Below are positions 2,811 through 52,529 of a DNA stretch of 64,000 bases, piece after piece. Made by a program: the position numbers and the translations under genes. Numbering within the stretch: position 1 is the first letter of the stretch; the number at the start of each line of letters is the position of its first letter. Below the pieces are notes generated by a model, which saw nothing but the letters and a program-made list of their open reading frames with translations, made no database searches and was not told the origin of the DNA. Source of the DNA: Blepharisma japonicum (Eukaryota; Ciliophora; Heterotrichea; Heterotrichida; Blepharismidae); NCBI GenBank assembly GCA_949751835.1, contig CATKHK010000070.1, positions 124,001-188,000 of the forward strand, in the 5' to 3' direction.

Positions 2811-5800
2811 TTATTTATGAGAATGACGATGTCTATGCTCAAGACTTGTAGCTGAATGCTCTCCAGATCGAATAGAGGCGTGAAGCAAAGAGTGATATTG
2901 AGCGACTGATGTTTTGTGGGAGGAGCTTGCTTCTGATGTATTTCGTTCTGCTCCGTCGGTATGTGATCGGTAAGTCCCACGAATGAAATGATCTCTGTCT
3001 TCTTTGCGATTATGCTCTTGATGCTTTTCGTAAAGTCACGAGATTGCTTTGATTGTACTATCAATTATATTTGTTTCTTCAGGGTTTGAGTTTACTATTG
3101 GTAGCGAAAACACGTAATCTGTAATTCTTGCAAGACCTTCAGAAAGGTTTTGTATTTCTTCATCTTTTCTTTTAAGCCTTTTTCCTAAGTCTTCATCAAT
3201 ATCTTTTCTTTTTGCTAATTCTATAAATCTCTTTTGCAGCAGCTCATTTTCTTGAGTTTTTGTATCAAGATCATCAGATATTTTGGCGTTAAGAGTTTTC
3301 AATAAAGTATTTTCCTCTTTTAATTTTTCATGAATTTTTACTTTTTGGCTCATATTATCATATCCTGAAAGCCTATCATTTTCCTTGTTTAAAACTTCCA
3401 TATCTTTTAATATTCTTGCTTTTTCTTCTCTTATTTGAGAAAGCATTTTTTTGATTTCTTCATTTTCTTTGACACTTCTGTATTCTTCACTTCTTAGTCT
3501 TTTTATTTCTTCTAGCATGGTTTCTCTATCTTGCAAGCTTATTTTGAGCTCTTCTTTAAGCCTTTTTACTTCACCTTGAGCAGAACTGAAGCGTTTAGTA
3601 ATAATTTCTATTTCTCTTCGCTGACTTTCAAGTGCTTCATCAGCTTGAGAATAATATTCTTGGCCCTTTTCTTTTAGTTCTTTAAGCTCTTTTTCTCGTA
3701 GCTGCACAATTTGTTTGAGGTATTTTATTTCAGATTCCTCATTTTGAGTATTAGGTATTTCATTTTTTTTGATTTCGGAGTTTAATTGAAAAATGGTTTC
3801 TTCATTTTTTCTTAGTTTGTCTCTGAGGTCTTGAATAGTATTGTTTTTTTCGTCAATACACTTTTTCCACATATTAATTTCATTTCTTGTAGCCAAAATA
3901 TTTTTATTTGTAGTTTTCAATATTTCCATTTTCGTTTCATTTTCCTCTTTAAGCTTGATATTTTCTTCTTTAAGAAGGTCAATCTCAGATTTAAGCTCAT
4001 TTATGTCATCTTGTGGAATTTCTCTTAATTTTGCGAGCTCAAGCGTGATCTCTGCGTTTTTCTGAGAGACAAGAATGCTGAGCTCTTGATAATGCTCTGC
4101 GTTCTTTTGAGAATCTTCCAAATCTTGAGACAATTTTTTAACTTTTGTTTCGAGATTGTCATGGTTTTCGGCTTCTTTGAATAATTCTGATTCTAAGTGT
4201 TTGATTTCATTAGTCAACTCATTTGACCTTTTTTCTTTTTCTTCTTTCAATTTTTCTATTTGAATTTTATGCTCTTCCAGAGTTCTTCCTAAAATTTCAT
4301 TTCCAGCCTTTTGTTTTGTTTTTAAATCTTCATTTTCTTTCAGCAGCTCAATTTTGGTATTTGTAAGGGCTTCATTTTCTAATAAAACTTTTTGATGTTC
4401 AGCTTTTAGTTCAATATATCTTTCATTTAGAACTTCTTCATTTTGCTCTTTTTCACTAAGTTCATCAATTAAATTATTATTAATTTTTTCTTGTTTTTCA
4501 TTTTCCAGCAATAGAGATTGATATTGATCTTTGTAGGCTTTTGTTTTTTCTATTAAGGATCCTTCTTTTTCTTGATATGAAAAAATTTCTTTGGTCAAAT
4601 TCGTAATTCGGTTTTGTAGCTCATTAATTGTATTTTTTGAATTTTCTTCAAAATCAATTAGCTCTGATTGAGAACTTTGTAAATTTTCTATTTCTTTTTC
4701 TAAGTTATCATTAATTCTGAAACTATTTTCTATTTCTTTTTTCAGTTCATCATTAAGTTTCAGATTATTTTCTATTTCTTTTTTTAGTTCATCATTAATT
4801 TTCAAATTATTTTCTTTTTCTTGAAGCATAATAGAAATTTGGGTTTTAAGAGCCTTATTTTCCTCAATTGCTGTCGCATAAGGGCCTAATGGATCTTTTA
4901 TTGATAAAATTATTTGATTCAGCTCATTATTTTTGTTTTCCATGGATAAAAGCTCATTTTGTGAATTAGCTATATCAAGAACACTTTCCTCTAAAGATGA
5001 GTTTAGGGTTGAAATTTCTTTTGATTTAAGCTCAAGTAATAAAGCATTTTCATCTAAAGATGCTTTGAGAGCTGAAATTTCTTTTGATTTAAGTTCAAGC
5101 GATAAGATATTTTCATTTAAAGATGATTTGAGAGCTGAAATTTCTTTTGATTTAAGTTCAAGCGATAAGATATTTTCATCTAAAGATGTTTTGAGAGCTG
5201 AAATTTCTTTTGATTTAAGTTCAAGCGATAAGATATTTTCATCTAAAGATGCTTTGAGAGCTGAAATTTCATTTGATTTAAGTTCGAGCAATAAGATATT
5301 TTCATCCAAAGATACTTTGAGAGTTGAAATTTCTTTTGATTTTAGTTCGAGCAATAAAACGCTTTCATCCAAAGATGCTTTCAAGGCCGAAATTTCTTCT
5401 GATTTTAGCTCAGCTGAAGATTCTAAGTTTAAAATCAATTTAGATTTCTCTGAAATTGCATTTTCCAAAGAAAATACTTTACTTTCAAGTTCAATAAATT
5501 TTTGCGATTTGCTATCTGACAATGACTTGAGGTTTGTGATTTCACCTTTTTTCACTGAGAGTGAATTTTCTAAACCTTCTATCGTCTGCGATAATTCTGA
5601 AATTTTATTTTGCAAGTTTTCTATCATTTGAGCATTTTTTATATTAATATCATTATTTTCATTTGTCTCATTATCTTTCTCAGTCATTAAATTTTGCAAA
5701 TCTTCTATTTTCTGAGTCTGCTCAATATATGAATTCTTAAAATCATCCAATTGATTTGACCTTTCTGTAAATAAATTTTGTAAGTCTGATAATTCATGCG

Positions 5801-8366
5801 ATTTCTCTTCAAAAATACCTTGAAGATCTACAAACTGTTTATTTTTTTCATCAAGAGAACTCTGTAGGTTTTCTATTATTTGTGATTTTTCTTCTACCAT
5901 GCTTATAAGATCAGTAATTTTTTCAAATTTCTCTTCAAGTGAATTTTGCAGATCAATTATTTGCTGTTTTAACTGTGAAATAAATCCTTGAGATTCAGCA
6001 ATTTCTAAAAGTTTATCTGATAAGCTTATATTTAAATCTTCAATTTGCTGTGATTTTTCAGAAAGAGACATTTGCAAATCACTAATATTTGACTTAAGGT
6101 ACTCTGATGATTCTGATAAATTTTCAATTTCTTCATTAGCTCTTTTTAGCTCTGCTTCTTTTTGTTCGATTTTTGTTTTTTCAAATGCAAGCTCTTCTTC
6201 TAGAATGGCTATCTTTGATATAGCATTATGCGCTTCAATATGCTTTTCTATTTCTTCTTTTAATAGTCCAAGCTTATTTTCCAATTCTTTTTTGTCATTT
6301 TCCAATTTTTCAATTTCTATTATTTTTTCTTCTTCTAGCTCAATTTGCTTTCTTAAACTTTCCTCATCATTTTTTAATTCTTGTTTAATTTTTTCTAGCT
6401 CTACTATTTCATTTTCCATTTCAGATATTTTTACCCTTAAAGAATCATGCTCCGTATTAGCTTCATTTATTGAAACTTCTATGCCTAAATCTTCACTTTG
6501 TGTTTCTTCACTAATAAATTCTTTATTTTTTAAAAAATCGATTTCAGCTGTAAGCTTATTATTCATAGCTTCAATTTTTTCAATATAATCACTATACTGT
6601 TTACCTTGATCTTCAAGTTGTTTATTAAGGTCAAGGATTTTTTCTTCATAATCTATTCTTTCATCAATTAATGTAGAAGATTTTGGTTCTTTTGTTTCAA
6701 AGAATAAATTTTTAATGGTCTCTCTGTCTTCTGCAGAATTTTTTAATGTGACGCTTAATTGCTGAGTAAATTGTTCAAGTTCTTCAATTCTTGCAGCTGA
6801 AGAACTAGGATCGCGCTTAAGCTCTCTTCGAAGTTCTTGGTTTTCAAGCTTTAGCCTTTCGTTTTCCACAAAAAGTCTAGCAGCTGATGGATTAGATTCA
6901 ATATGCTCTTTTAAAATTTCTATTTCTTTTTTCAGATTATTTACTTCTGTATCTTCATTTGGAGGATTTTGTCCAGCTAATCTTGCAATAGTAGCATCTC
7001 TGAATTTAATGACCATTTTATCATTTGTCATTTTCTTTTCATACTTTGCAATTAATATATTTAAATTTTGAATATGCTGGTCTTTTTCAAGAATTTGTGT
7101 TTTTAGATAGTTTTCAGTCTCTTGGTTAATTTTGATTTTTTTTTCTAATAATTCTTCTAATTCAATTTTTACATCATTTGATTCAATTGGATCTAGCCTT
7201 TCTACTATTTTCCCAGAACATCTTGGACATTCCATAGGTTTCACATTAGCTAAAGCTTCTTTAAGTCTTTTTATTTCTTCCTTTAATAAAAATACAGTTC
7301 CAGTTGTATCTTCATTAACAACTGCCATATTTTTTATCTGTTTCGCCCTTTGAGCAAACTTCAACGTTGACAAAGTCTCCGAAAAAGCTGAAGATGCAGG
7401 ACTGACATTGGCAATTATAAAAGTCTTTGAGTTACCTCCTAAAGAATCTTTAAGCAAAAATGTCAGTTTTGAGTCACGATAATGAACATGGCGCGATTTT
7501 CCTTCAGAAATGTCTACAAGTGAATTAATTACGTTTCCTAAGGCAGAAAGAGATTTATTGATTTTTCCAGCTTCTTTGAGTCTTTCTCCAGCTGCATCTG
7601 TAGCCTTTTGACGCTCGCTTCCTGCAAGATCAATTAAATGAAATCGACTGGATCTGAAGTTCATAAGACCATTGTTGTTGTGCTTGCTTTCTATAAGCAT
7701 TGTAAATACAGAATGAGACCTTGAGGATTCTTTATTCATCGACGTAGAGCCTACATGTCTGTTTTGTGCGCCAATTCTTAATAATTCATAGGTCTCAAAT
7801 GCATTATTAACAGTCTCTTCAATTAGCCCGTCCACATAAATTCCTCTTTTTATATCTTCTCTTATTTGTAAATTTTGCATGCTTGTATCTAAAAGATCAT
7901 GTATCTGTTCTTGATAAATTTCTAAATATGAGCATTTTATTAAGAAATCCGAATTATTCATCTGGATTTCTCGAGTAATTTCATTGAAAATATAGTCAAA
8001 ACACCTAGGGAGGACACCTCTTAAATGATGCTTATCTAAGCTCATACTTAACTCGTCAATACCTAAACCTTGAATTGTAAAAGTTTTACCTGCTCCTGTT
8101 TGTCCATATGCAAAAATCGTACCATTATACCCAGCTAAGCAGGAGCATGCAATTGGCTTGCCAATTATTTCAAAGATTTGGTCTTGGGTTACGTTTTCGT
8201 CAGCTACATAGTCATATGTGAAGACTTTTGGATCAGGACGAGCATCAATTGAAATCGTGCTTGACTCATGAATTGCTAGACATCTTCTGCCAGTTTCTGA
8301 TGATTCTTTTGCGTTCAAGGGCCTTACTCGAATTGCCACTTTTACATTGTCCTTTGAATCTGCCAT
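2811..8366 (-). CDS. Kinesin-12 (KIF15-like) with long coiled coil
   Basis: A single exon of 1851 residues. The N-terminal motor (about 7-350) has the P-loop GQTGAGKT (88-95), SSRSH (switch I) and DLAGSE (switch II). The block YDYVADENVTQ, and AVVNEDT just after the motor, are typical of the kinesin-12/KIF15 group. A CPRC pair follows near residue 385, then over 1300 residues of heptad coiled coil with a tandem 21-residue repeat (separate entry). Reading TGA at 3036-3038 as Trp adds a His/Arg/Ser-rich tail of 74 residues to the true stop (TAA, 2811-2813). Kinesin-12 motors are plus-end directed and act in spindles and microtubule arrays; that role here is inferred. It begins 256 bp from the SF-assemblin gene on the same strand. 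Confidence 0.92.
4990..5410 (-). repeat. 63-bp tandem repeat within the kinesin coiled coil
   Basis: About six to seven tandem copies of a 63-bp unit encode a 21-residue (three-heptad) unit of the form LELKSKEISALKASLDEN plus three residues. Central copies are nearly identical in DNA, outer copies more diverged, which suggests recent expansion by unequal recombination or replication slippage. The unit length keeps the heptad register, so copy number can change without breaking the coiled coil. Confidence 0.85.
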
Positions 8367-28984: not shown

Positions 28985-31900
28985 ATGAAAGACATTACTG
29001 CTGGCGACACATACTCAACATTAAACTTCAAAGAAGACACATTGGATTACAAAATCAGCCAGCTAAAAGCCACTGATCCAGTCCCCGACAGCCAAACAAT
29101 ATACTTTAACGATGAAGTTAAGTGTGTCTTAATATCTTCTGACGAAAGATTCCTCTTTGCAGGATTGTCAAACGGTGATATATCAATGTTTTATATGTAT
29201 TCTATCGACGAGTTAGAAGACATTGACGAAGAAAAATGCGAAGCAATAAGGATAAATTTCTCAGGGCACACAGATGAACTTAAATGTCTGTGCATCACTT
29301 CAGACTCGAATTCATTGATATCAGGGAGTTATGATAAAACAATCAAAATTTGGGATATTGAGACCCAAGCTGAGGTGGCTTCGCTTGAAGGGCACGAGGA
29401 TAAAATTTTAGCATTGGCTCTTTCTGCTGATGATAAATTTATAATATCTTCAAGTATAGATCATATGGTTAGAATTTGGAATTTTCAGACAAAAACTCAA
29501 GAGAAGCTTATAGAGGATATTGAAGCAAATATTTATTCTATAGCCATTTCTTATGATTCTAGAATAGCTGTCTTTGGGTGCAGTGACCAGAAGTTAAGGG
29601 TTTGGAATATTAAAGAAAACAAGAAAGGAGGTGTCTTAAGTGGCCATCAATGGCCTATTTATTCGGTGGCAATTTCTCATGATAATAAATGGGCTGTGTC
29701 CTGTGGGATGGATCATACAGTGAGGAAATGAAATTTATTAGAAATGAAAGAAGAAAGGATTTTAGCAGACTGGCCAGATACAATTTATTCAGTCTATATT
29801 TCTCAAGACGACGATTATGTGGTATACGGGAGATATGATGGCTTTATTGGAATAATTCATATGGGATCTAACCAAGAAATTGAAATCCCAGGCCACGATT
29901 CTTGTGTATACTCAGTATATATAAGCAGCTCATCTAAATATATTATTTCAGGAGGCCGTGACAAAGCGTTAAGATTATGAAAATTCTCTGAGTGGCCAAA
30001 AGAGCATATTCTTTCAGGCCATGAAGGAAGAATTTATGATATAGCTATATCACAAAACAGCAAACTTATGGCCACAGCAGGCGATGACTATAAAATTCTC
30101 TTATGAAATCTTACCAATAATGAGCTTGAAGGAAAACTAGAAGGTCACGATGGTCCAGTTCACTCTATTCTACTTACATCTGATGGTACGAGAGCTATCT
30201 CAGGTAGCCAAGACCAAACAATTAGAGTGTGGGACCTTTTATCCCAATCTGAAGAATTCGTTCTAAAAGGCCATGACGAGTGTATATTATCTATGTGCAT
30301 CACATCTGATGACAGATATGTTATATCCGGCTCCATTGATAAAACTGTCAGAGTTTGGGACCTTGAAGAAAAATCTTTACTACAAACTTTAAGAGGTCAT
30401 GAGCATAAAGTAAATTCAGTCTGTATTGCAGCAACTGATGACACCAGAGTATTTTCAGCTAGCAAAGACAAAACTATCAGGTGCTGAAATTTGGTCGACT
30501 TCCAGCCTCTTTGTATATTAGAAGGCCATGAAGATGAAATTTCATCAATCTGCATCACATCTGATGGAAAATTTTTAATATCAGCTGGCCAAGATGCCAC
30601 TATAAGGGTTTGGAATCTTGACTATAACTACCAGGAAACTGTACTGAATAACAAGGAAAAAGGAATTTACAAGCTTTGCTTAAGCTCAGATGATAAATAT
30701 TTATTTGCGCAGACTGATAAAAGGTATGTAAAAATGTGGTTGTTCCCAGACAGACAAGCATTATCTACTCTTTATGATTATAAAGACATTTTATCTGTGT
30801 CTTTATCCCCTGATAACCAATATCTTGCTATAAGTACAGATAAATATGTAAGAACCTTTAAGAGCCCTATATCTAAAGACATGGTTGTAGTCCCTTATAC
30901 TTATAGTTACTTTTTTAAATGCTTGCTCTATAAGCTGCTTAATAATTTCGAGGTGAAATTCACCGATTATTTCAATCACCATATTATATGTCCTTGGAAT
31001 ATCTCAATTTTACATATTTTGAGTTATATGAATTTAACGAAATTTCTCCAAGATTCTATCAGAACAGGTGGACTATTTATCAGCTGCATTACAGGCGAGA
31101 CTCCACTAAAAATTGCATTAAACCGAAAAAGCAAGCTATGTGCAGAAATCATAATACAGCTATTTCCTTTGATTTACAGCAACAATCCTACTGCTTTCAA
31201 CTATCTAAGAGATGATTTGCCACTTCTCAACAAAAGCAGCTTGCCATCACTAAATCTTGTATATGAAATGGCATTTCCAGCGATAGAAGATCATAGTGTA
31301 CCTACCTTTGGAAACCTTTTGCATAACCCTCCTATTATAATTGCTGCCAACCTACCACTAATTGATCCTTCTCAGTTTATAGCCCAGCAAGAAAATGTTA
31401 ACGAGCTATCAGCAGACACAGAGCTTGTGTTCCGTCGCAGCCTTTTTGCACTAGATTTAGAGCCAGGATCAATACACTCTATAAAATTTATTCGTTCTCT
31501 ACTAAAATGCAATCAAATTGAAATTTTTCGAACCGAATTCATAAAAGCAGTATTAAAATATAAATGAAGACAGATTATGTGGGTAATGTGACTGCAAGCT
31601 TTTATATATTTCAGCCTTGTCTTGGTTTTATTTTTGCATACAGTTGTAGACAGAGACAATATCGGCCCATTAATCATTATATTTGTGATAAACACCTTTT
31701 TCTTATGCTACGAACTTGTGCAGTCTCGAGCTAGTATTGGTTCTTATATAACTGATTTCTGGAACACAATTGATTTATCAAGAATAATAATGAGCTATAT
31801 TTACCCCATTTCTTGCTGGTCAGATGCAGATCGTATCACGAAAGATGTGATGCTCGCAATTTTAACGATTTTAGTGTGAATTCGACTGGTAGGCTATATA

Positions 31901-32623
31901 AGAATGTTTGATAGATCTCGGTATTTAATCAAACTTATAATAGAAGTCATCAAAGATATGGGGCCATTTTTCGTGATTTTTGTAGTTTCAACCTTTGGGA
32001 TGACGATAGCTTTTTATTGTGATAGAAGTGACGATACCTCTTTCTATTTTCAATGGCTAAACACTTATACTTTGGCCTATGGTGCTTTTGATTATAGTGG
32101 CTACTCAAACTTGCAAATCTGCATATTTATTGCTGCAAGTCTTATGAATACTTTGATTTTGTTAAATCTTATTATCGCTATCATGGGACATACTTTAGAA
32201 AAAGTCACTGATATGTATGATATAGCAGATCTCCAAGAAATGGCTGACATCATAATGGAAATTGATAGTGTCTCTTTTTGGGGACGTAAAAAAGGTCAGT
32301 TGAAATACCTTCAGCAATGCTCAGCTGCATCATCTAGTGAAAAAGATGATGACGATGATGAAAATGACATCATTGAGTTAATAGGCAATTTAAACAATAA
32401 ATCCATTGAAATGGATAAAAATTTAGAATCCATTGCTAATAGAATAGAACATATGGATACAAGGCATGATGAAGAAAAAAGCATTGATGATTATATAAAT
32501 GACATTAAAAGTGAGTTTAGCAGCTTAAGAAAAGAAATGAAAAGCCAAGTTAGTGTCTTGAAAGATGAGCTGGAGCTTATAAGACAAGAAGTAGGAAACA
32601 GTAACTCGTCAGTAGTTAGTTAA
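28985..32623 (+). CDS. WD40 propeller fused to a TRP-like ion channel
   Basis: One uninterrupted frame of 1212 residues once TGA is Trp (29729, 29978, 30104, 30485, 31565, 31586, 31877). Residues about 40-640 hold 12-13 WD40 repeats (SGSYDKTIKIWDI, SGHEGRIYDIAIS, SGSIDKTVRVWDL), nearly two seven-bladed propellers; four repeat-ending Trps are TGA. A linker at about 685-730 is ankyrin-like (GETPLKIALNRKSKLCAEII). Residues about 865-1065 have six hydrophobic segments ending in LILLNLIIAIMGHTLEKV, the S6 region of TRP channels, preceded by a pore-like TLAYGAFDYSG. The tail is an acidic stretch plus coiled coil. Predicted: a cation channel subunit with a large cytosolic WD40 sensor/scaffold. Ion and ligand unknown. 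Confidence 0.9.
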
Positions 32624-32918: not shown

Positions 32919-35900
32919 ATGCTTAGGGCCGCAAGCCAACCTCTTAGAAAAATAGGCCTCTATTCAAAAGAGTCAATAGCTGCTCAATGCAATACAAGGG
33001 ATCTCAATGTTGTTCAGAATGGCTCGATTACCGAGCTTCACCTCAAGCGAGACTGAAATGGAAACACATTAACTCAAAAAACCATAAAAGATCTCCGAAT
33101 ATCACTTCAGTTGATGGAAGAAGACATTCACTCAAGAGCAATCATGATTAGAAGTAAAGGGGATTATTTTTCACGTGGCGCGGATTATCTTTATCTTGGC
33201 CATCTAGGTGCCAACAAACAATCAGGGACTGAAGAGTACTTCGCTGCTCTTTATGACCTTATTTACTACATAGGAAGAATGGAAACTCCTCTGATCCCTT
33301 TGATCAATGGGAAAGCTTTTGGCTCAGCTGCGTGCTTATCAAACTTGGCTACATTTTCCGTCGCAACTCCAAGTACAAGGATGGCTTTTCCAGAGACTTC
33401 TTTTGGGTTTATTCCGACAGGAGGAGCTTCATATCATCTGTCAAGACTTCCAGGAGAAGTTGGGGTGTATTTAGCATTAACAGGACGTGTTATTAATGGC
33501 TCTGACGCAGTTCACTTAAAATTCGCTTATAATTTCGCAAACTTGACTGATGAGTTTTTGTGTGACCTTCATTCCACAGCAGCTCAAATATCGAATCCAA
33601 TTCCGTCTCACAAGCTATTTGGGGAATATTATGAGGCGTTTAAAAAGGATAAAAATCACCTTGATCACCAAAATCAATATGAGAACTGGCTTGAACTACA
33701 AAATAGAATTGGCTGGAGTGATTTTTATGTGGATAGACGAGAAAATGTAAAAATGGTGTACGCTGATTTGTTGCATAGGGAAAGCATGAGGAATGATTCA
33801 TGGTCAGAATTACCGGGGCATGACTGGAGGAGTCATATTTCTCCTGGAGCCCAGAATCACATAAGGAATTTTGAGAATATGGTTATGAAAAAACACATAT
33901 GGAGCAATCAATCTTATTATTCTCTTATTCATGACTTAAAAGCTATTTATAGATGTTTTACAGCTAGCACCCTAAGTGAAGCTATTGAAAGAATTAATAG
34001 AGAGCTTGAGCATGGTGACAAAGAATGGGCTAGAGATACCTTTAGCAGACTTTCTAATAAATCCCCTCTAGCCTTAGAAGCTACTTACAGACTAATAAAA
34101 GAAGCCAAAAATTTAGAATGGGCTGAATGTTTAGACCGTGAATTTAACGTCGCATTAAAGCTTGCTCAGCAGCCAGACTTCCATGAAGGCTCTATCAAAA
34201 TCCTCAGCAGACATCCAGGAGTCCCTCAGTGGAAGGTAAATTTTCCGGTCCCACAAAACCTCATCGATGAACTTTTTACTGTAGAAAAAACCCTTGATCT
34301 TGAAGGAGTTAAGCCAAATCAATTTTTGCCAGTCAAAGAATGGTACAAAACCTTTGCTAGTGGCCCAAGACATTATTTAAACGAGACCACCACTGACCAT
34401 TATTACGCCAGAATGAGCTTTAATGAAGATGTCCGATCTTTCCTCAACGACCATGACATAGACGTTAGAGATCCTTGTGTAGAAGCTTCTGAGGTTAGAA
34501 AAGGGTTTTGGAACGCAGAAATGTACAAGCGAAAAGTCGATGAAGAGCTCGACCATGTCCAAAGAATGGCTGAAGACCCACTGCTAAAAGAGTTCTATAT
34601 AAACGACAGGAAAAAAGCTATAAATGATCTATTTACTAATGAAGCTGAGATTACCCAAAAAATTAACGATTTAATCACAAAAAGGTTCGAAAGAAAATTT
34701 GAAGATAGGATTAACACCATTTTTGACAGATCAAGAAATGCTAGATCGTTAGAAAAGCAAGAATTTTTCAGAGAAGTCAAAGATTTTATCCATAGAAAAC
34801 ACTTTTTGGAGAATGAAGGGAACTTAGAGAAGCTGGATAAGTATGACCTGGATGGAATGAAAGCAGATGATATTCCAATGAAAATTCCTTATGACAGTAA
34901 AAAGTCTTTCATTGATGATTTGCAAAGAGATATCATAGCAAAAGGCGAAACAAACCCAAATATTGTGAAATATGCTGATTTATTGTCAATTGAAGACTAC
35001 AAGTCATATTTCTCCTTATATCACCCTGCATTTTTAGAGAAAAACATTTCTTCAGAGGTAAATGAAGTTGGGAAAAATATATGGGACAAATTTAGAAAAT
35101 CCACAGATGCCCTGTTTTTCGGAAACACCAGGGATATGCACAAAAGAGCAGAGCTGGATACAAAAGTTAAAACAGTTAACATGATGGATAAAGAAATTCG
35201 TGAGGACTTGGGGACATTAGTGCCTGATGAAGTATTAGACAATGTATGGCTATATGGTTCTGATAGAAAAAATCCTGGGTATTCTTCAGTTGAATCAGAC
35301 GGTGAATATGCTTATGAAGGGGAAAAACTAATAAAAGAGCTAAACGACTCCCTAAATCCTAATAAAACAGCTGAAGAGTTATCAGAGATAGAAAAATATA
35401 AGGAAGATCAAGAAAATGTGGAAGAAAAGATGTCTTCAGAAGAAAATCCTCAAGAAGAAGTCAAACTGAGCCAAAAATCTAAGGAAGGTGAACCTATAGA
35501 TAGTCAAGAAGCTGAACTCCAAGAGGAATACAATAAGTATTTAGCCAACAGGGAGTATGGTATCGAATTCAATAAAAATGAAGCTGATAAATTGTTTGAT
35601 GAAATAATAGGCGAAGAACTCACAAGTGAAGGGGCATTGAGAAAAGATGCTTTCAAAGAGCTCAGCGAAGTTCGTAAAGAAGTCGCGATAAATGAAGAAA
35701 ATAATGAAGAGGAAGCAAACAATGAGTTAGAAAGCGACTCAGAGTGGGGAATTCCTGAAGAATTGCCACCAAAAACTGCAAAAAAATTCAGAGATGCAAT
35801 TGATAAGTTTGAAAAGGATAATAATAAAAAATTGCCAACTGCTGAAAAAATAGTTGATTATGTAGAAGCCGTTATGGAAGGTAAAAAAAATATTAAACTT

Positions 35901-38771
35901 GAATTGGAGAAAGTAGAGCAAAAAGCTGAAAAGACAGAAAAAATAATAAAGGAACCAGAATATCACTTAGAAGATAAAGGAAAGCCCAGAGAAACCCAAA
36001 AATCAAATGAAGAAGCAGCACAAAGTGAAGAAGAAGTGGAAGCTAAAGCTGATAAAAGAGAAAATTCTGAAGAAGAAATGGATTTCAGATCTGATAGGAG
36101 TTTATTTTATGGAGAAAAAAGAGAAGGAGAAGAATCGAATGGCGATATACCTGAAATTGAAAAAATGTTTTCGCAAAAAGATTATGATTCTATACCAGAG
36201 CGCTACAAAGGCATGGAAAACTGGACAAAGGAAGATTGGAATCTTCATTTTGCTCTTTTTACAACTAAACGAAAAAATCTGTACCATTACGGGAAACTAA
36301 AAGATTTTCAATTCCAGAGCAAAGAGGATCTCGATAATTTCATCAATGAAATGGTTGAAAGTTTAGGAAATAAAGAAGAAAATGACATAGAATCAGAAGA
36401 AACAGTCACAAAAGCATTAGAAAATGTCACCAAAATAGAAGAAGGCTTAAAAGCAGAAGAAGAGCAGACCGAAAAGAAAGAAAGCACCAAAAATGACTTG
36501 AAATTGATAGGGAAGGTTAGAATCGCATTACAAAAAGTATTGAAATTAAAGTTAGAAGAAACTTCAGGCAAAGAAGAAATTGAAAAAACTGAAGAAGATG
36601 GGCTTATTAATGACAATATCTTGAAAGAAAAATATAATGCAACAAAAGAAGCTCTCACAAGTAAAGCAAATGAAGATTCTTTGAAAGCTCAAGATGGGAG
36701 CAATGAATTATCATGGCAAGAAGATCATGATGAAGATTTGCAAGGATTCACCTTATCCAATGAAGAAAATAATTTAGGATCAAGCCAATCATCATCTGGA
36801 AGCAGCAATAGTGAAGCGAGCCAATCATCTGGCAGCAGTAGCGAAGATTTGTATCCAAAAGAAAGTCCTGAAGAAATGGAATCCGATGCAAATTATGCAC
36901 AAGAATCAAGTAAGGCTGAAGAAGCAGGAGAAACTAATGAAGACAATGGAATCAGCAAACCTAAAGAAGCAGCTGAAGTTGATAAAACCAGTGAACTAAA
37001 TGCAGCTACTGAAGCAAGCATAGCCCATGAACCTAGTGAAGCCAGTGAGCCTAATGAAGCTTATGAAGCAGAAGAAGCCAACAAAGCCCATGAAGCCTAT
37101 GAAAGTGGAGAAGCCGAAGAAATTGATGAGATGTATGCCTCTCGAAATAGAATGCACAGAAATGATGTAGACTTCAGAAATCAGTCAGACTCAGAGAGGT
37201 ATATCTCTGACTCAGACCATAGACAAGAATCCGAGGTAGAAGGAAATCGCTCAGACCCAGAACAATCATATGAAGAATCCGTGGCAGAAGAAAAGGACAT
37301 AAGCCCTGATGGAATAGGAGAAGACCAGCACGATATCGATATTGCAAGCGACAAACGCTATATTCCTCGAAAGCCAGATGAAGCTGACAGGTTACAACTT
37401 GAAATTGCCCGGCCAGATGAGGAGGAGCGAGAAGAAATTGATAATGAATTTGAAAAAATCGATCCCCTTGTCGTTCAAGAGCTTCAAAAAGAAATTTACA
37501 TCAAAACTGGTATAAATGACATAAATGAAGGCATAAAATTGCTCCACAGTCCAGATTTCAACCTAAACCTTTATGAAATGAAGATGAGACGAATTGAAGT
37601 CATCAGGTCAGAACTTAAAACTGATGACAATATTTACCATATGGACCCAAACAAAAAACGACTAAAAAAACTCTTCGGTGACCTTCTAATCAAGCCACAA
37701 TTAGATGACCTTGACGAAAACGTCTTAGGAATCCTGGAGCTAGAAAGCCTAGAAGAAGTCTTAAGTGAGGTGGAAAGATGTAGAAAAGAAAAAACTAACC
37801 CAATCCTTATCGAAGAAGAGTTAAATGAAGAATTGAAAGATGCAAAACAAGATGCAGAAGAAAATGAAGGACTTGTAGAAGATATGGAAGACGAAAAGAA
37901 TAACTTGGTGCTAAATGATTTTGCGAATAGAATTATGCTTGATAGGGTATATCTAAATGCTGTGCTAGGCAATAAATCGTATTTGCCAATGCATTTAACA
38001 TTCAATGAAGGGCATGTCAAAGGCTTAGAAGACCTGATGGGCCTGTGCAATTTTTCACAGTCACCCAAAGAATGGGCTGAAATATCGCTGCAGAGGGCGA
38101 TTGATGATATTTTTGATGTTAGAGCTGAGCTAGAGCTTAAGATGACAAGAGCCGAGTTAATTGCTTATGATAGGTCTATTGAAGAAAGATTTAAGCCTCA
38201 AAACATCAAAAAGGATATGCTAAAGCAATTGTCTCTTGAAAGCATTGCCGCCTACAAAACATTTGATCTGATCACAGACGAAGAACGTGAAAAGAATAAA
38301 GAAGCCAAACCAGCAGAGTTCTTGCAAGAGCTACAAAAGAAGCTAAATAAGAACATGGACACGAGAAGAATAGAAGCTGCAAAACAACTTTACAGATCTT
38401 GGTTTGGAAAGACACAAGTTGGCAAGCCAAAAGACCACAGCCGCGATTATTTAGTTGAAGACGATTTATATGAAAAATTCAGAAACTATGACACGAGACA
38501 CGAGAAGTACTCGAAATTGCCTACAACTAAAGAAGGGTTCGAAAAATTCTGGGAAAGCAAGAAGTACGTTAAAATAAGGCAAAGGGGCGAAGACCATGCT
38601 AAAGAGAGAGAGGAAGTTAGAGAGCTCGAGCATAAAATGAACAGGGCAGCTGAAATTGCCTGCACAATTGAAAATCTATTGAAGAGCAAAAAAGTTAGGG
38701 AGAAGGTGGGACCTGAAAATGTGGAGTTTGTCAAGAAGATCATTGCAGATAGAGATAATCTTATTTTCTAA
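32919..38771 (+). CDS. Giant mitochondrial crotonase/HIBCH-like protein (mS47-like)
   Basis: 1950 residues from ATG 32919, no intron, one TGA Trp at 33054. The start MLRAASQPLRKIGLYSK is a typical mitochondrial presequence. Residues about 35-420 are a crotonase-superfamily domain of the 3-hydroxyisobutyryl-CoA hydrolase type: PLINGKAFGSAACLS, AFPETSFGFIPTGGASYHLS and LALTGRVINGSDAVHL. In HIBCH a catalytic Asp follows in F-P-D-x-G-G; here it is Thr, so hydrolase activity is doubtful. The remaining 1500 residues are highly charged: an acidic Glu/Ser/Ala-rich low-complexity region (about 790-1510), then helical Lys/Glu-rich sequence. Mitoribosomes of ciliates, plants and kinetoplastids contain mS47, a catalytically divergent HIBCH homologue; I infer a greatly enlarged mS47-like subunit. 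Confidence 0.82.
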
Positions 38772-50399: not shown

Positions 50400-52529
50400 A
50401 TGGAAACTTCCACCGATCATATAAAAGTTGCTGTTAGAGTCCGCCCACTTCTTCCAATTGATAGAAGCCAAGATATCATTGTTTATACTGGAAATGTAAA
50501 TTTTATTTAGAACTCAGAAATTCGTATAAGTGATGGAGACCATTATTTATCATCATCCTATGATAAAGTTTTTACAGCTGAATCTTCGCAGGATGAAATT
50601 TTTGAATTTGTATCACCGACGCTAGAACGCACAATTAAAGGTTTCAATTGTACAATTTTTGCATATGGACAAACAGGCTCAGGAAAAACTTTTACTATGT
50701 TTGGAGCTGATTGGGAAATCAATAATCCTGCAGCTCAAGATTATTTTGAAAGAAACTCTATTTCACGCAGACGACCTTCAACTAGTTTGGAGCATCCGCT
50801 TGAGAGTCCAGCAAAACAAGGTATAATTCCTAAATCAATCTCAATGCTTTTTAATAAATCTGAAGGAAAACAATTAACATATTATTCGAGTTTTTTACAA
50901 ATTTACAACGAAAAAATATATGATTTATTGCAAGATCCGAACAGAAGCAAAGCTCTTAACATAAGAGAAAGCAAAATATATGGAATTTTTGTAGAAGGTC
51001 TGGCAGAGTTTGTAGTGGAAAACACTGAAGACTGTTTCATGCTGTTATCCAAAGGTGATAGAAACAGAGCTGTGAGACAAACAAGATTTAATCATCACAG
51101 TAGTAGATCTCACACAATTTTTCAATTATTATTGGAAAGTGATAAAGCTAATAAACGCGGAGTTTTGAAACGAGGAAAATTAAATTTTTGTGATTTAGCT
51201 GGATCTGAAAAGTATGATAAAGAAAATGCTATGGTCCAAGACCATATAAAAGAACTTACACAGATTAATAAATCTTTATCCACATTGGGAAAAGTCATTT
51301 ATGCTCTTGGCACTGGCAAAACTTCTCATATTCCTTATAGAGACTCAAAATTAACAAGGCTATTACAAGATTCGCTAGGAGTAAGCACACAAACAATTCT
51401 AATCGCTACAGTTTCTCCATCAGCTGGATATGCAGAAGAAACAATAAGTACCTTAAAATTTGCAGATAGAGCTCGAAAAATTACAATAAAAATCAAAAAA
51501 AATGAAATTTCAGCTACAAATGATGAGCTAGTTTTAAGGCTCCAAAGAGAAATCCAGCATTTGAAAAGTATTTTGAACTTAAAAAGAAAAGGAGGAATTC
51601 AAGAGCTTCAGCAAGAAATTTGGGAGCTTAAAGAAGAAAACGAAAAATTGAAAAAATTATCATCAAATGCCACTATAGAAGAGGTTGAAAGACTGAAACA
51701 AGAAAATAAAAGGCTTAAACTATCACTTCAAAATAATGGTTTTCCAAGTGACTTAGAAGGATTTTATGTAGAAAAGAATAACTTTGAAAACCAAGATAAA
51801 AGCAATTTAGAAAACCAAGAAAAAACAGAAGATAGACCACCATCGTCATCAACAAGATCTCGAAAAGAAAACAATAATATTTCTGAATATGGATTTACAA
51901 ATAGGAGTTTTTCTCCTTCGGAAAATCGTAGGCGATTGTGTCCAAGATGCAACCAGCCTCCTCCTTGCATTCATGTTTCTTCTTTATCAATTGAGCACTC
52001 AGCTTCAACTTACCGTTCCACAAATTCTACGGATTCAAGGTATAATAAAAACATAAAAATCCCAAAAAACTTGCAGGTTAGATATAGAATGACTAACTGT
52101 GTAATTGAAAATGGAGGAATTTCTCAAGAAATCAAAGAACAAGAAGCAAGACAAAAGGAAATGAGGAAAATAAAAGAAAGATTGGGAAAATTAGCTGAGT
52201 TGGAATCATATAGAAAGACTCAGTTTAAAATGGAGCTTGAAAGACTGGAGGCAGAAAAAAGAAGAAATGACGAAGAAATGAGGAGAAAACAAAGTGAAGA
52301 TGCAAAAAGAAGGAAAATTGTAAAAGAACTCAAAGAAAAGGTTAGTAATTACAAAGAATCCAAAAAGGCAGAAAAAGAAGAGGAAGATAAAAAATTAGAT
52401 GACCTAAAGAGAATGGCAGAAAGAAAAAGAAAAAAGCGAAATGAAGAACAAAAGAGAAAGCTCCAAGAATTTTACGAGAGAAAAAAAGAAGCGATGTTAG
52501 AAGAGTTAGCTGACTACGAAAAAATGTAA
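50400..52529 (+). CDS. Kinesin with N-terminal motor
   Basis: Exons 50400-50495 and 50511-52529 give 704 residues. Motor at about 8-360: KVAVRVRPLL, P-loop AYGQTGSGKTFT, FLQIYNEKIYDLL, HHSSRSHTIF (switch I), FCDLAGSEKYDKE (switch II) and YRDSKLTRLLQDSLG. Neck and stalk follow with coiled coil. A cysteine cluster (RRLCPRCNQPPPCIHV, near residue 510) and a very charged C-terminal coiled coil complete it. The motif set shows a functional ATPase; I cannot place it in a numbered family, and the Cys cluster is unusual. It converges on the C2 gene with 45 bp between stops. Confidence 0.92.
50496..50510 (+). other. 15-nt intron in the second kinesin
   Basis: GTAAATTTTATTTAG, phase 0, ending in TAG that would stop the frame just after the first beta strands of the motor. 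Removal restores a complete kinesin N-terminus. It has the A at the sixth base from the 3' end. Confidence 0.95.

Follow-up and report, generated by a model that had tools for sequence, protein, structure and literature searches.

The window analysed here is a stretch of 64,000 nucleotides of the Blepharisma japonicum genome (GenBank assembly GCA_949751835.1, contig CATKHK010000070.1, positions 124,001 to 188,000 of the forward strand), and positions are counted from its first letter unless a contig is named. A single frame from ATG to stop, which encodes a protein of 1212 amino acids when TGA is read as tryptophan (NCBI table 4), lies near its middle. As shown in Table 1, the protein begins with WD40 repeats, continues through an ankyrin-like linker into a TRP-like channel core, and ends in a probable coiled coil. 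Stentor uses the standard genetic code. Under that code the frame, which contains seven in-frame TGA codons, falls into pieces. The probability that 1212 codons are free of TAA and TAG by chance was about 2e-32, assuming independent bases at the composition of the window. Five GTA...AG strings of 15-16 bases were found in the gene by pattern, and the frame requires none of them as an intron. For Blepharisma stoltei, both the reading of TGA as tryptophan and introns of 15-16 bases have been published, according to the part of PMC9942806 used here. Given TGA as tryptophan, the continuous frame joining WD40 and channel parts that an earlier note on this DNA had described was borne out. The note did not mention the breaks under the standard code.

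Table 1. Features of the WD40-channel gene, with positions in the window
Feature	Position	Strand	Residues	Remarks
Whole coding frame	28985..32623	+		1212 aa (TGA=Trp); no intron required
WD40 repeats 1-7, probable first propeller	29108..30016	+	42-344	
WD40 repeats 8-14, probable second propeller	30017..30862	+	345-626	last two repeats weak
Two degenerate ankyrin-like stretches	30998..31171	+	672-729	conserved family junction; weak by Pfam
S1	31592..31648	+	870-888	hydropathy
S2	31661..31717	+	893-911	hydropathy
S3	31766..31819	+	928-945	weakly hydrophobic, below cut-off; placed by eye
S4	31844..31900	+	954-972	R967 invariant in 30/30 aligned members
S5	31958..32014	+	992-1010	hydropathy
Pore helix and filter YGAFD	32048..32104	+	1022-1040	
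S6	32117..32173	+	1045-1063	Asn1055 in 28/30 aligned members
Post-S6 stretch at the place of the TRP domain	32189..32284	+	1069-1100	
Probable coiled-coil tail	32378..32599	+	1132-1205	behind an acidic stretch

Three further frames were noted in the window. A frame of 1950 residues at 32919-38771 (+) had an N-terminal match to enoyl-CoA hydratase/3-hydroxyisobutyryl-CoA hydrolase (ECH_2, 9e-56; best stretch residues 40-254, with a second stretch that was not placed); it continues for well over 1000 residues that are E/K/S-rich by eye and gave no other Pfam match at E<=0.001. Kinesin genes were found at 2811-8366 (-; Pfam 2.1e-110) and at 50697-52529 (+; Pfam 1.2e-74). In the frame of the latter, the match does not set in until profile position 97 of 327, so that an intron may separate the gene's beginning from the rest.

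Tandem repeats that fold into seven-bladed propellers mark the WD40 family, and the window protein combined 14 such repeats, three of them weak, with an all-beta model. Pfam detected WD40 at 2.4e-98, and 11 stretches passed individually. When a model built from 11 of the protein's own repeats was searched back against it, 14 repeats were obtained, most of them spaced 42 residues apart in the N-terminal half; the first (9.1 bits) and the last two (10.1 and 1.8 bits) were weak. The array of 12-13 repeats read earlier was therefore present, with the number raised to 14. These repeats probably form two seven-bladed propellers, the split into seven and seven being suggested by the repeat count. A single-sequence AlphaFold model of residues 25-632 was almost all beta (mean pLDDT 83.2, pTM 0.56); it was the best of five, the other four reaching 35-43. 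Foldseek matched this model to propeller proteins, for example 2ymu, SSU-processome proteins, CFAP52, and Apaf-1. Because the query TM-score over the full model was only 0.42-0.48 among the best 50 matches listed, how the two propellers sit relative to each other is uncertain; the predicted propellers themselves are credible.

The linker between the propellers and S1 is ankyrin-like in the family consensus, where the junction resembles two degenerate ankyrin repeats, but weak by Pfam. Among 30 family members scanned at E<=0.01, Ank_2 matched two and Ank_5 one; the window protein was absent among the Ank_2 and Ank_5 matches listed, and Pfam gave no ankyrin match at E<=10 in its C-terminal 592 residues. 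The linker read earlier as ankyrin-like is thus weakly so. The six hydrophobic segments claimed alongside it were recovered in part, since five of the six expected segments exceeded a Kyte-Doolittle mean of 1.4, whereas S3 fell below. The S6 text LNLIIAIMG was present as described. In the filter, YGAFD, the window protein has Ala (as in 4/30 aligned members) where 21/30 have Asp or Glu. The TRP domain is a helix after S6 with a conserved Trp, as in the TRPV-type TRP box; at this place the family has a conserved IADxKEL...MIxExE without Trp at the TRPV position, and the window protein likewise has no Trp there. A C-terminal coiled coil, which had also been claimed, is probable from reading the sequence and appears as helices in a low-confidence model. 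Single-sequence AlphaFold gave the channel half a pLDDT of 39.5. The structure prediction that had been proposed as a check, run on the two halves apart, was therefore confident for the propellers and uninformative for the channel.

The channel type was assessed by Pfam, phmmer, and a profile of the family channel parts. Ion_trans (1.7e-6) and PKD_channel (5e-6) both exceeded the Pfam cut-off in the window protein, and the best phmmer match of its channel part in the PDB was TRPV2 (1.2e-5). The family profile matched TRPM8 (3e-14) and the TRPV protein Inactive (1e-12), followed by TRPM2, TRPM5, TRPA1, PKD2L1, and TRPV3/5/6, down to 4e-9 among the best 60 of 182 matches (E<=0.01), all of which were TRP, TRP-like, or polycystin chains. 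Together with an Ion_trans-type core of six segments, of which S3 is weak by hydropathy, these results support membership in the TRP superfamily, as the term TRP-like had implied. Assignment to one subfamily was rejected because the scores spread over TRPM, TRPV, TRPA, and PKD. TRPV channels carry six ankyrin repeats before S1; this arrangement was not found in the C-terminal 592 residues of the window protein.

We searched the channel part against the genome that holds the window (45.2 Mb, 224 contigs). The 87 matches were merged to 79 places, including the window gene, and 67 of the 73 best-scoring rows were full length (at least 1230 bases) without stops other than TGA. Upstream regions were examined at 75 of the 79 places (30 with flank, 45 fetched separately), the other four being short fragments or lying at a contig start. 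WD40 repeats preceded the channel in frame at 72 of the 75, window gene counted, with Pfam WD40-type domains at 29/30 places with flank and 43/45 fetched separately. The three misses, L036, L046, and L084, all lie at contig ends. Only 61 codons (L036) and 8 codons (L046) precede the match in two of them. In L084 the match is preceded by 119 codons, which include a stop in frame and gave no WD40 match, and this copy is mildly contrary to the shared architecture. At the 72 places the WD40 part and the channel start share a frame, some copies being broken further on, and the upstream open frame is only 286 (L037) and 280 (L078) residues long at two of them. By the repeat model, each of the 72 upstream fragments, the interrupted L065, L067, and L083 included, has between 4 and 12 repeats, compared with 14 for the complete window protein. 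Ion_trans was detected at E<=0.01 in 30/30 channel parts scanned. WD40 and channel distances covaried among 28 members (Pearson 0.82, Spearman 0.36; Mantel test, 0 of 2000 permutations), and covarying distances with a shared domain order are the pattern that an old fusion would give. The WD40-TRP architecture is real, and the window gene is one of about 75 genes that make up a family, which strongly supports the fusion put forward in the earlier note.

Relatives outside this genome were sought in two collections. No relative was present among 236 pattern matches in viral_contigs or among 14 matches in genome_contigs, for which one paralog served as query; by their descriptions these collections cover viral, bacterial, and archaeal DNA, so both are uninformative on other ciliates. 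Within the genome, the window gene and its closest paralog (L010/L039) are identical at 303/577 residues in WD40, 246/476 in channel and linker, and 19/104 in the tail. The filter of the paralog contains Asn and its S6 differs, and by their sequences the two form a branch with an altered pore. Because the window protein's filter has no acidic residue and the paralog's S6 is altered, this branch may conduct differently.

Some other copies and Ion_trans matches in the assembly (G000) were noted. In two close paralogs of the family, L087 (G000:C31:446008-448320) and L088 (G000:C196:11207-13148), the channel part carries inserts of about 1.0 and 0.6 kb, respectively, which occupy a shared site and contain stops; they could be eliminated sequence that was retained, or mobile inserts. 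In L086 (G000:C115:12802-14054) the channel frame shifts near the middle, next to an open copy at C115:20564, and it may be a pseudogene, contain a tiny intron, or reflect an assembly error. On contigs C16, C71, C95, C26, C51, C6, and C159, Ion_trans matches occur in runs of neighbours, several of them sharing a single open frame, and E values go down to 1e-53 versus 1e-14 for the best of the WD40 family. Such runs might represent voltage-gated channel genes of the multi-domain type arranged in arrays.

Selection on the two halves was compared by dN/dS from pairwise alignments in which E/K/D-rich stretches were masked. The set comprised 35 proteins, 28 with flank and 7 whose channel parts were fetched on their own; it excluded L036 and L037, then L065, L067, and L083 because of their interrupted channel parts, and members without a fetched channel part. 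In 19 close pairs, which come from six subfamilies and are mutually non-independent, dN/dS was 0.09-0.36 in the channel and 0.12-1.13 in WD40, being higher in WD40 in 18/19 (Fisher p<0.05 in 14/19). The extreme was L021/L038, with 1.13 in WD40 versus 0.21 in the channel, and L075/L076 had equal rates in both halves. Synonymous divergence was alike in the two halves for most pairs; it was clearly higher in WD40 in the four pairs with L040, and a smaller excess was seen in L068/L070 and L018/L038. These ratios indicate that the channels are under purifying selection and that the propellers evolve faster in nearly all of these pairs.

Positions R1-2, R1, and D-1 of each WD40 repeat are top-face hotspots of protein binding (Wu et al. 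2012, PMC3419727, in the part used here), and they correspond to positions 1, 3, and 19 of our repeat model. In 7 close pairs, taken as non-overlapping from their distances, these positions ranked 1, 3, and 2 of 30 for nonsynonymous changes per codon (0.85, 0.53, and 0.79, respectively). The hotspots exceeded the other repeat positions in 7/7 pairs, and their mean was reached by only 2 of 4060 position triples, the hotspot triple included. Five of the seven pairs are those in which the pattern was first seen; the two new ones gave 1.18 versus 0.47 and 0.71 versus 0.65 at hotspots and other positions. Pooled dN/dS was 0.61 at hotspots, compared with 0.38 for the remaining repeat positions and 0.53 for stretches that the repeat model does not cover, and synonymous change was also greater at hotspots (dS 0.62 versus 0.39). 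The higher dS and the rate outside the model weaken the seven-pair result, which points to relaxed or changed constraint and does not prove positive selection. Family-wide positive selection was rejected as an explanation, given the pooled hotspot ratio; one pair, L021/L038, exceeded 1 in its WD40 part.

The hotspots were also compared over 71 pairs with WD40 identity above 38%, in which 37 of 67 proteins enter (the set excludes L036, L037, L046, L065, L067, L078, L083, and L084). The hotspot triple was the most polarised of all 4060, with an identity-difference sd of 0.239 versus 0.099 for the median triple. At p<0.01, hotspots were more conserved than the rest in 8 pairs, less conserved in 11, and no different in 52. 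The 8 pairs belong to a single related group (L012, L025, L031, L035, L043, and L077), and the 11 to the groups L018/L021/L038/L040, L025/L045, L026/L044/L055, and L030/L042. At the two extremes, the hotspots of L043/L077 are frozen (26/26 identical versus 150/248 elsewhere, p=6e-6) and those of L038/L040 are scrambled (1/12 versus 104/148, p=3e-5). A looser count that included L065, L067, and L083 found hotspots less conserved in 55/95 pairs. Such a surface, held constant in one subfamily and reshuffled in others, would be expected of a face that binds a partner, suggesting that the binding choice of each channel is made by its propellers. In the pair formed by the window gene this pattern was not seen: against its closest paralog, the hotspots were not enriched in changes (22/35 versus 161/289 identical, p=0.47; in a second count 27/42 versus 192/352, p=0.25). 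The earlier idea of the propellers as a cytosolic sensor or scaffold is therefore plausible, with hotspot evolution in the family, though not in the window gene's own pair, lending it indirect support.

We consider the window protein most probably (at about 0.6) a cation channel with propellers on the cytosolic side, to which a partner inside the cell binds and thereby localises or gates the channel. It would be one member of a large modular cation-channel family in a heterotrich-like ciliate. Through the TRP core of six helices and the coiled coil of the tail, four subunits would come together, each with its double WD40 propeller tied to S1 by the short ankyrin-like linker. Both ends of TRP-type channels are cytosolic, so the propellers would face inward. 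Their top faces might bind a protein of the cortical cytoskeleton, the cilium base, or a signalling pathway, and the bound partner would place the channel and probably bias the linker to gate it. Paralogs would differ partly in top-face recognition while keeping the channel output, namely depolarisation or calcium entry. The tetramer, ion conduction, the cytosolic side, the partner, and gating are each what we infer from the architecture. A bolder form of this reading, which we offer only tentatively, is that the roughly 75 proteins are channel-receptors whose WD40 top faces make up an intracellular recognition code, one subfamily's partner being kept under strict constraint and others switching rapidly, with the conserved TRP core converting binding or tension to current. 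If true, a single cell would have at its disposal numerous channels, gated mechanically or by signals, that can be addressed individually.

The same substitutions could also arise if the propellers were a constitutive scaffold for folding, assembly, and trafficking, and the top-face differences were drift on an exposed surface. Exposed WD40 positions are expected to vary, the pooled hotspot dN/dS lies below 1 and near that outside the repeat model, most of the 71 pairs show no difference, and the rates of L075/L076 are equal in both halves. We regard this account as rather unlikely, however, since drift alone leaves unexplained a subfamily in which the hotspots are invariant while the rest has diverged, and the scrambling of the same positions elsewhere. 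For the window protein in particular, a regulatory role was also considered, in which it would conduct weakly or not at all and form heteromers with other members of the family. The Ala that replaces Asp/Glu in its filter, like the Asn and changed S6 of its closest paralog, would fit this role. Filter residues are variable among known TRP channels, however, and the protein retains the S4 Arg and the S6 Asn, which makes such a regulatory role unlikely in our judgement. Two adjacent genes read as one through a missed stop or intron would be a more trivial origin of the fusion; genes are closely spaced in this region. With a continuous frame, a conserved junction motif, and the same in-frame order at nearly all places examined, such an artefact is very improbable.

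To our knowledge, the channels behind the touch and light responses of heterotrich ciliates are mostly unidentified, and about 75 channel places with a replaceable cytosolic head provide named candidates for such single-cell responses. Animal TRP channels carry N-terminal ankyrin or MHR domains. The family shares with the TRP superfamily the six-segment Ion_trans core, an S4 with few charges, and an S6 ending in an NLLIxIMG-type motif; it differs in its N-terminal double WD40 propeller, in having no clear subfamily, and in the TRP-box Trp, which was not found at the expected place. Double-propeller proteins such as 2ymu, CFAP52, Apaf-1, and Pwp2, which are among the best Foldseek or sequence matches, likewise have consecutive propellers, but as solved they are presumably not channels. 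In the titles and abstract beginnings listed by literature searches, no description of WD40 repeats fused to a TRP channel was found, so the family adds a cytosolic domain type not described there on a TRP channel; ciliate domain databases may list such proteins. Deflagellation in Chlamydomonas involves both the TRP channel ADF1 and FAP16, a WD40 protein encoded separately from it, according to the part of PMC5068960 used here. Lineage-expanded sensory receptor families of animals, as described in part of PMC11526382, resemble the WD40-TRP family in having many paralogs in one lineage. The WD40-TRP family combines a conserved effector part with a faster-evolving recognition part, and in contrast to the animal receptors its variable part is predicted to be cytosolic, so that it would read intracellular partners rather than outside ligands.
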